Assembly (NCBI GenBank): GCA_021325635.1 | Contig: JAJPGV010000009.1 | Span: forward strand, 1 to 58,713 | Length of the DNA: 58,713 bases | Direction of reading: 5' to 3' | Source: Chloroflexota bacterium | GTDB lineage: Bacteria > Chloroflexota > JAJPGV01 | The notes under the pieces: generated by a model | Told to the model about the DNA's origin: nothing | What the model saw: only the letters and a program-made list of their open reading frames with translations | Databases searched by the model: none | Part shown: positions 37,849 to 39,073 of the stretch, piece by piece | Layout: the number at the start of each line of letters is the position of its first letter | Numbering within the stretch: position 1 is the first letter of the stretch | Translations under genes and position numbers: made by a program

Positions 37849-38259
37849 TTGCGACGCGTTCTCGCGGCCTTGGGCGTTGCTGCCTGTCTGTCGGCTTGTC
37901 CTCTGTCAGCCGGCGCGTCCGAGGCCGCCTCCATCAATCGTTTCTACCAGGGGCAATGCACCTGGTTCGCCGCCGAAGTCCGTCCCGACATCGGGTCGAT
38001 GGTCCGCGGCAATGCCAATCAGTGGCTCGTGGCCGCGCAGCGGGCCGGCTTGGAGACCGGAGACGCGCCCAGGCCGGGCGCTATCGTCGTCTACCAGGCC
38101 GGCGTGCAGGGGGCGTCCTGGGCGGGGCATGTGGCTCACGTGCTGGCCGTGGACCAAGACGCCCAGCACTTCCTGGTGGACGAGATGAACTTCCCGCGCG
38201 CGGGCGTAGTGACCCAGCGCATGTCGCACACCGGGCCGGGCGTTACGTTTATCTATTAG
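37849..38259 (+). CDS. Secreted CHAP-domain protein
   Basis: 136 residues from a TTG with GAGGTG 5-6 nt upstream. Residues 1-26 form a signal peptide (ALGVAACLSACPLSAGASEA). The CHAP amidase fold follows: catalytic Cys in GQCTWFAAEV (about residue 37), a DAPRPGAIVVYQAG stretch, catalytic His in WAGHVAHVLAV and the third polar residue in VDEMNFP. CHAP proteins cut peptidoglycan peptides at amide bonds. There is no separate cell-wall-binding domain, so it is a minimal enzyme. It converges on the next gene with 3 bp between stops. Confidence 0.85.
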   Translation: MRRVLAALGVAACLSACPLSAGASEAASINRFYQGQCTWFAAEVRPDIGSMVRGNANQWLVAAQRAGLETGDAPRPGAIVVYQAGVQGASWAGHVAHVLAVDQDAQHFLVDEMNFPRAGVVTQRMSHTGPGVTFIY

Positions 38260-38262
38260 AAG

Positions 38263-38700
38263 CTACGACGGCCTGTAGGGGTGGAAGAAGTTGGCCACCC
38301 GGAGATACTCCGCCTCGTCCGCTTCGATCATCAGCTTGTGCATCAGGACCACGTCGGCCTCGGGCACCCAGGTGATGGGCGCGATGCACAGGCTGCCGGC
38401 GTGCCGGCCCCGCTCGTATACCTGCACCTGACCACGCCGCCGTGGGACGTGATAGGTGCGTCCCGGGACGAGACGGCTTGGCACCTCCATGAAGCCGATT
38501 CCCAGCAGTTGGTCCACCTGCTGTGCTGTAAGCAGCTCTCGCAGCAGGTGCTGGGCGCGCTGCTCGGCGTGCCGGCGATCTTCGGCTGAGCCCCGTCCAT
38601 GGCGGGTGAGGCACCAGAAGACGGCGACGCACAGGACCCAGACGAAGCCGGCAACGACAGCCAGCGAAAGCAGGCCAGACTGCAGGCCGAAGCCCGGCAT
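38263..38700 (-). CDS. Single-pass membrane protein coupled to a Gly-Gly-ending protein
   Basis: 145 residues. Residues 8-31 form one membrane helix (LLSLAVVAGFVWVLCVAVFWCL). A basic helix follows (RHGRGSAEDRRHAEQRAQHLLRELL), then a compact domain with VPSRLVPGRTYHVPRRRGQVQVYERGR and VVLMHKLMIEADEAEYLRVANFF. I do not know this family. The ATG overlaps the stop of the preceding gene (TGATG), so translation is coupled and the two products probably work together. The soluble part should face the cytosol by the positive-inside rule. Confidence 0.75.
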   Translation of the reverse strand: MPGFGLQSGLLSLAVVAGFVWVLCVAVFWCLTRHGRGSAEDRRHAEQRAQHLLRELLTAQQVDQLLGIGFMEVPSRLVPGRTYHVPRRRGQVQVYERGRHAGSLCIAPITWVPEADVVLMHKLMIEADEAEYLRVANFFHPYRPS

Positions 38701-38945
38701 CAGCCCCCGGCCATGCGGGGGATGATCACGATCTCGTCGGCCGTGCGATCGAACGTATCGATCCGCTCGGCCGGCTGGCCGGGGGCGAGCTTGAAAGCGC
38801 TGGCACCCTTGGCCCGCTCCTGCGTGAAGATCCGTTCGGCTTCAGCGATCGCGGCCAGGGCTTCCTCGTCGCCGGCTTCGACTTCGGGCCGTCCCCACGT
38901 TACTCGCCGGTCTCCGCGTGAAGAGAGCACGTACAGTGTTGCCAC
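38700..38945 (-). CDS. Small protein with MoaD/ThiS/ubiquitin-like C-terminal Gly-Gly
   Basis: 81 residues from a GTG with AAAGGAG 6 nt upstream. The N-terminus ATLYVLSSRGDRRVTW looks like a beta hairpin, residues 26-46 form a helix, and the protein ends DEIVIIPRMAGG. That ending is very like the last strand and tail of MoaD, ThiS and archaeal SAMP proteins (for example IIPPVSGG), where the terminal Gly is activated by an E1-like enzyme. No ThiF/MoeB-like E1 or JAB protease is adjacent. The relation may be convergent. The gene is translationally coupled to a membrane protein. Confidence 0.65.
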   Translation of the reverse strand: MATLYVLSSRGDRRVTWGRPEVEAGDEEALAAIAEAERIFTQERAKGASAFKLAPGQPAERIDTFDRTADEIVIIPRMAGG

Positions 38946-39073
38946 ATCGATCTCCTTTCGGCTTCTCGGAGCCCAGGACTCGCAACGGCCGTGCCATGCC
39001 GGACCACCTGGCGCAATGGCATAGCTCTTGCTTCACCGCGGACATAGATCGAACAAGCGGGAGGCAATGGCAA

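Follow-up and report, generated by a model that had tools for sequence, protein, structure and literature searches.

A two-gene module of Chloroflexota, Bradyrhizobium plasmids and phages pairs a Gly-Gly-ending protein of predicted beta-grasp fold with a cysteine-bearing partner

We describe, by computational analysis, two overlapping genes of a Chloroflexota bacterium: one encodes a small protein with a conserved terminal Gly-Gly and a predicted ubiquitin-type beta-grasp fold, the other an obligate partner with an invariant cysteine and a soluble domain of predicted cytosolic location. The pair may constitute a system for protein tagging or sulfur transfer that has not been described before. 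Our preferred reading, which we hold tentatively and with almost as much confidence as doubt, is that an E1 would activate the small protein in trans and that the activated C-terminus would then move to the partner's cysteine, as a thioester or in sulfur transfer.

Results

The window, that is, the whole stretch of 58,713 nucleotides analysed (contig JAJPGV010000009.1), contains both open reading frames on the minus strand, as well as their TGATG overlap, just as a first-pass annotation made from the letters alone had reported. The features relevant here are:

38700..38945, minus strand: Gly-Gly-ending small protein, 81 aa (open reading frame with GTG start, homologues, AlphaFold model, PDB matches)
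38952..38958, minus strand: AAAGGAG, resembling a ribosome-binding site, 5′ of the small-protein GTG start (sequence)
38700..38711, minus strand: last residues AGG of the small protein and stop codon; in the model the tail is not part of the last strand (sequence, DSSP string, pLDDT drop at residue 81)
38698..38702, minus strand: TGATG, stop of the small-protein gene and ATG of the partner gene (sequence)
38263..38700, minus strand: partner protein, 145 aa, with an N-terminal membrane helix (residues 7-35) and a soluble domain (AlphaFold, co-occurrence)
38386..38388, minus strand: codon of the partner's invariant Cys105, at the end of strand 4 (113 of 113 partners; coordinate computed from the start at 38700)

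The small protein has the C-terminal sequence DEIVIIPRMAGG (ORF 38945-38700), and the overlap of its stop codon with the partner's start suggests that the two genes are translationally coupled. Next to the pair lies a convergent CHAP-domain gene with a TTG start (window 37849-38259), which ends four bases from the partner stop.

Among 61 genomes searched within the phylum, nine have homologues of the small protein, and the source genome has a second copy. In a set of 400 Chloroflexota genomes, 73 have it, most often in two or three copies, and the matches extend to the last residue. Relatives also occur on Bradyrhizobium plasmids, in IMG/VR contigs and in the phage records LR756511 and KX853510; query A1 against viral_contigs and query A2 as a pattern source returned no match. 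The terminal Gly-Gly of this family is more than chance. It is found in 98 of 101 distinct complete members. Among the 1,267 ORFs called in the loci retrieved, GG is the ending of 37, just seven of which lie outside the family; the background consists of about 1,230 non-family ORFs called in the same loci. Two very divergent copies, found upstream of partner genes via the partners, end in GG as well, and the doublet is kept across phyla even where identity has fallen to about 30%, behind residues that themselves vary. Homologues that extend past the Gly-Gly or lack it, which the first-pass annotation had considered damaging to its proposal, amount to three minor exceptions among the 101: tails in GGVS and GGA (two genomes, one family) and in PG (one phage lineage). 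The former two (L111:6533-6901 and L115:6848-7123) run one or two residues beyond the Gly-Gly, which recalls ubiquitin precursors that need trimming. The PG-ending phage protein (L041:5695-6231, L143:4782-5234) has an apparent second, degenerate repeat of the domain at its N-terminus.

Does the small protein belong to a known family? Neither it nor the partner has a Pfam, NCBIfam or PADLOC family above cut-off, and their matches in PHROGs are weak. Membership in ThiS/MoaD (PF02597, TIGR01682) was rejected on scores below the curated HMM cut-offs (moaD model: 14.2 bits against 66.15), and a ThiS Pfam match was obtained for a single family member (E 0.0027) and not for the window protein, in agreement with the original assignment as neither MoaD nor ThiS. 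A profile comparison did align the last 15 residues, and these alone, with the MoaD/ThiS/CysO tail (P 7e-4).

The fold prediction that the first-pass annotation called for points to a beta-grasp, and not to a different fold, which would have spoken against the proposal. An AlphaFold2 model built with 13 sequences reached a pLDDT of 91.9 and has the elements E2-6, E13-17, H27-45, E49-53, E60-62 and E71-75 (DSSP), in the order beta-beta-alpha-beta-(beta)-beta. Residues past 75 lie outside any strand in the model, leaving the Gly-Gly end exposed. Read by eye, the 50 top-ranking PDB hits are of beta-grasp type: PB1, RBD/RA, UBL of USPs, MoaD (5mpo), bacterial multi-ubiquitin (8u38/9d5b), BubA (9ea8), RnfH, DIX and FERM F1. 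Individually these hits are weak, with a best E of 0.056 and a TM of about 0.4, so that assignment to the ubiquitin-type beta-grasp class is well supported by the model and assignment to a specific relative is not.

The second gene is an obligate partner of the first. Of the 400 Chloroflexota genomes, 73 have both genes and not one has either gene alone. In 93 of 101 loci the partner gene lies downstream on the same strand, and in at least two more it is nearby in another arrangement. The source genome has two small proteins and two partners, paired one to one; some genomes contain additional partner copies without a detectable small protein. Across the family the distances among small proteins and among partners co-vary (Mantel r 0.94; permutations reached at most 0.16), to which shared descent contributes, and paralogous pairs were in phase in 23 of 24 tests. 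Partners from Chloroflexota and Bradyrhizobium are homologous at 32% identity. Neighbourhood clustering of about 89 loci revealed no conserved neighbour other than the partner and, specifically, no gene for cofactor, sulfur, tRNA-modification, thiamine, molybdopterin or cysteine functions, which extends to the family the initial remark that molybdopterin and thiamine genes are not adjacent.

What kind of protein is the partner? In its AlphaFold model (pLDDT 88.9) the soluble domain runs helix-helix-four-strand-helix-helix, the four-strand stretch ending at Cys105. This cysteine is invariant in 113 of 113 distinct partners, and Tyr83 and Glu129 are kept in 112 of the 113; no histidine is invariant among them. 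The description of the partner as a single-pass membrane protein holds for the window protein and for about 68 of the 113 (about 60%), and fails for the 45 that have no helix. Membrane tethering was therefore rejected as the defining feature, which is instead the invariant cysteine of the soluble domain, and "membrane-tethered" is a trait of one large lineage. In 69 of 70 TM-bearing partners more positive residues follow the helix than precede it, from which the soluble domain is predicted to lie in the cytosol. The N-terminal parts vary between a membrane helix, phage domains and no helix. Two partners with long N-terminal regions (L167:1850-2932, L168:1866-2930) contain CxC motifs recalling SWIM zinc fingers, a suspicion to which Pfam lent no support. 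Some partner matches contained in-frame stops; in the case checked (G228) the profile match overruns the true stop, so no recoding is needed there.

The order of elements and a GSLCI...W.P motif drew attention to a likeness between the partner and E2 enzymes. Both have the predicted order helix, four strands, a cysteine at their end and two helices, and the cysteine is thus where an E2 would have it, its catalytic role being putative. The partner differs from E2/UBC enzymes, however, in having no HPN motif or invariant histidine (113 distinct sequences), in lacking sequence-profile or Foldseek similarity and in being often membrane-anchored. Homology to E2s was unsupported: hhalign against three eukaryotic E2s gave a probability of 0.2%, and Pfam, Foldseek-PDB and PDB-sequence searches were empty. 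Foldseek found no PDB match for the partner model; against a viral library it retrieved two proteins apparently from Rctr197k and an uncharacterised protein of Agrobacterium phage Atu_ph07. The latter phage, flagged by structure, has no sequence match to partner or small protein, and we rejected it.

In bacterial loci, neighbourhood clustering yielded no E1, E2 or JAB as a conserved neighbour. The first-pass annotation's statement that no E1 or JAB is nearby consequently stands for these loci, but both enzymes are encoded elsewhere in the source genome, and two phage records carry their own. The search for a ThiF/MoeB-like E1 gene that it had suggested turned up one ThiF-family E1 (MoeB-like), along with one Prok-JAB, on another contig of the source genome (contig 7). 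They adjoin a MoaD(CysO)-CysM fusion and form with it a sulfur-carrier cluster. In this cluster (L074, 118-1338 and 1369-2244) a MoaD/CysO-like domain is fused to a CysM-type PLP enzyme beside the E1; the Gly-Gly of the fusion is internal (PAMAGG-AVTT), the JAB gene lies about 1.4 kb from the E1, and the JAB might cut the fusion and free the tail. Of the module-bearing genomes examined, 45 of 47 contain an E1. So do 20 of 24 Chloroflexota genomes that lack the module, a background of about 83% that renders E1 co-occurrence across the phylum uninformative. In two genomes with the module (G240, 94% complete, and G024, 81%) only weak Rossmann matches to ThiF were seen.

The phages tell more. Both long phage records with the module, LR756511 and KX853510, encode a ThiF E1 and, near it, a JAB-like protein, about 60 kb from the module. 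None of eight control phage records has an E1 (seven exceed 480 kb; two have the same length and may be duplicates). Of 50,697 phage records searched, the E1 of the module phages has matches in only 11, with LR756511 and KX853510 ranking top. Since these two share the module genes, both E1s may go back to one event. KX853510 belongs to the PG-ending phage lineage, yet has an E1. No E1 was seen on shorter viral contigs with the module, but these are fragments. In LR756511 the E1/JAB cluster (L175: 6617-8542 and 9867-10760) resembles CBASS-type E1/JAB, with an unannotated 214-aa gene in between, and a 297-aa protein near it contains SAGICLAGTDRNFDLQSLVGVI and appears E2-like by eye. Phage partners have an extra N-terminal domain. 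Four phages have a zinc-ribbon-like gene 5′ of the small-protein gene, either adjoining it or a few kb away at most (L041:266-667, L042:5473-5838, L135:6246-6854, L143:3369-3698).

Discussion

How does the module relate to known systems? Like ThiS, MoaD and CysO (PF02597), the small protein is a small, predicted beta-grasp protein whose last strand is similar and whose Gly-Gly terminus is free; unlike them, it has neither HMM membership nor cofactor genes, its N-terminal half is different, and it comes with an obligate cysteine-bearing partner. Prokaryotic ubiquitin-like systems have mostly been discovered by following E1, E2 and JAB genes. In bacteria the module is invisible to this approach because only the ubiquitin-like protein and an unrecognised cysteine protein are linked. 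The module shares with BilABCD/Bub, CBASS Cap2/Cap3 and types 6a-6e of Iyer et al. 2006 (PMC1779556, PMC11354881) a Gly-ended beta-grasp protein, accompanied in the source genome by E1 and JAB genes on another contig, and a conserved-cysteine protein, but differs from these operons in that bacterial module loci have no linked E1, E2 or JAB, the partner is not a recognisable E2, and just two genes are conserved. Among the prokaryotic ubiquitin-like operons described by Iyer et al. 2006, the predicted conjugation types all include E1 and JAB (PMC1779556). The same paper presents the tail assembly protein I of phage lambda as ubiquitin-like (PMC1779556). This protein resembles the phage small protein in being phage-encoded and ubiquitin-like, in ending with a glycine and in being accompanied by a phage JAB; in contrast, the module's protein is separate, ends in GG, is paired with a cysteine protein and does not sit in a tail-assembly cassette. 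We found no description of the pair in the open-access literature, including the consulted part of PMC1779556.

What, then, might the module do? On the reading we prefer, a ThiF/MoeB-type E1 supplied in trans would adenylate the exposed Gly-Gly end of the small protein. The E1 would come from the phage itself in the two phage records, and in the source genome from the housekeeping sulfur-carrier cluster. The activated C-terminus would then pass to the partner's cysteine as a thioester, making the partner an E2-like carrier; alternatively, the partner would take sulfur from, or give sulfur to, the activated small protein. From the cysteine, either the C-terminus or the sulfur would reach a target, and in the main Chloroflexota lineage, whose partner is anchored, this chemistry would take place at the inner membrane face. 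E1 activation, the chemistry at Cys105 and the nature of the target are what we infer here.

If the module were a plain sulfur-carrier pair, the Gly-Gly would be converted to a thiocarboxylate, and the partner would be a user of that sulfur or a donor of cysteine persulfide, with no conjugation taking place. The small protein's tail is indeed most like that of MoaD/ThiS/CysO, and the sole E1 of the source genome is MoeB-like and sits beside the MoaD(CysO)-CysM fusion and the JAB. We nevertheless regard this as doubtful, since genes for cofactor, sulfur or tRNA-modification functions are not conserved next to the module, the small protein scores below the curated ThiS and moaD cut-offs, and the long phage records pair the module with a JAB-like gene. 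A shade more doubtful still is the boldest version of our preferred reading, in which the partner would carry the thioester on a new fold unrelated to UBC and so be a second invention of the E2 step, working with a new family of Gly-Gly ubiquitin-like proteins in bacteria and phages, and at the membrane in Chloroflexota.

Could the tail act without being activated? The Gly-Gly might plug non-covalently into the partner, giving a structural or sensory complex that is anchored by a membrane helix or a phage domain depending on lineage. Such a complex would suit a pair that is obligate yet has no dedicated E1 in bacteria, and a partner whose N-terminal parts vary. However, tails that are activated or processed are typically recognised by just this pattern, a terminal GG kept exactly behind variable residues, and both long phage records with the module have E1 and JAB-like genes; we thus judge this unlikely. 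Lower again we place a partner that acts as a peptidase or de-conjugase and frees the small protein from targets via its cysteine. An invariant Cys and a near-invariant Glu in the constant companion of a Gly-Gly ubiquitin-like protein would fit, as would the one family in which one or two residues past the GG would call for trimming, but the partners have no invariant histidine for a Cys-His pair and no peptidase-family match, and almost every small protein already has GG at its end, with nothing left to process, which makes this role improbable. Finally, a toxin-antitoxin or other selfish two-gene element, as two small overlapping genes that also occur on plasmids and phages might suggest, is very improbable given two or three divergent pairs in most genomes that have them, a near-constant two copies across one family, and no Pfam, NCBIfam or PADLOC match to toxin or antitoxin families.

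The module is widespread, usually multicopy, and present on plasmids of symbiotic bacteria and in phages, yet none of the family libraries searched contains it. If activation of the tail proves true, it would represent a new ubiquitin-like family together with a new kind of partner enzyme. If the tail is not activated, the module would show that an exactly conserved Gly-Gly end can serve another purpose.
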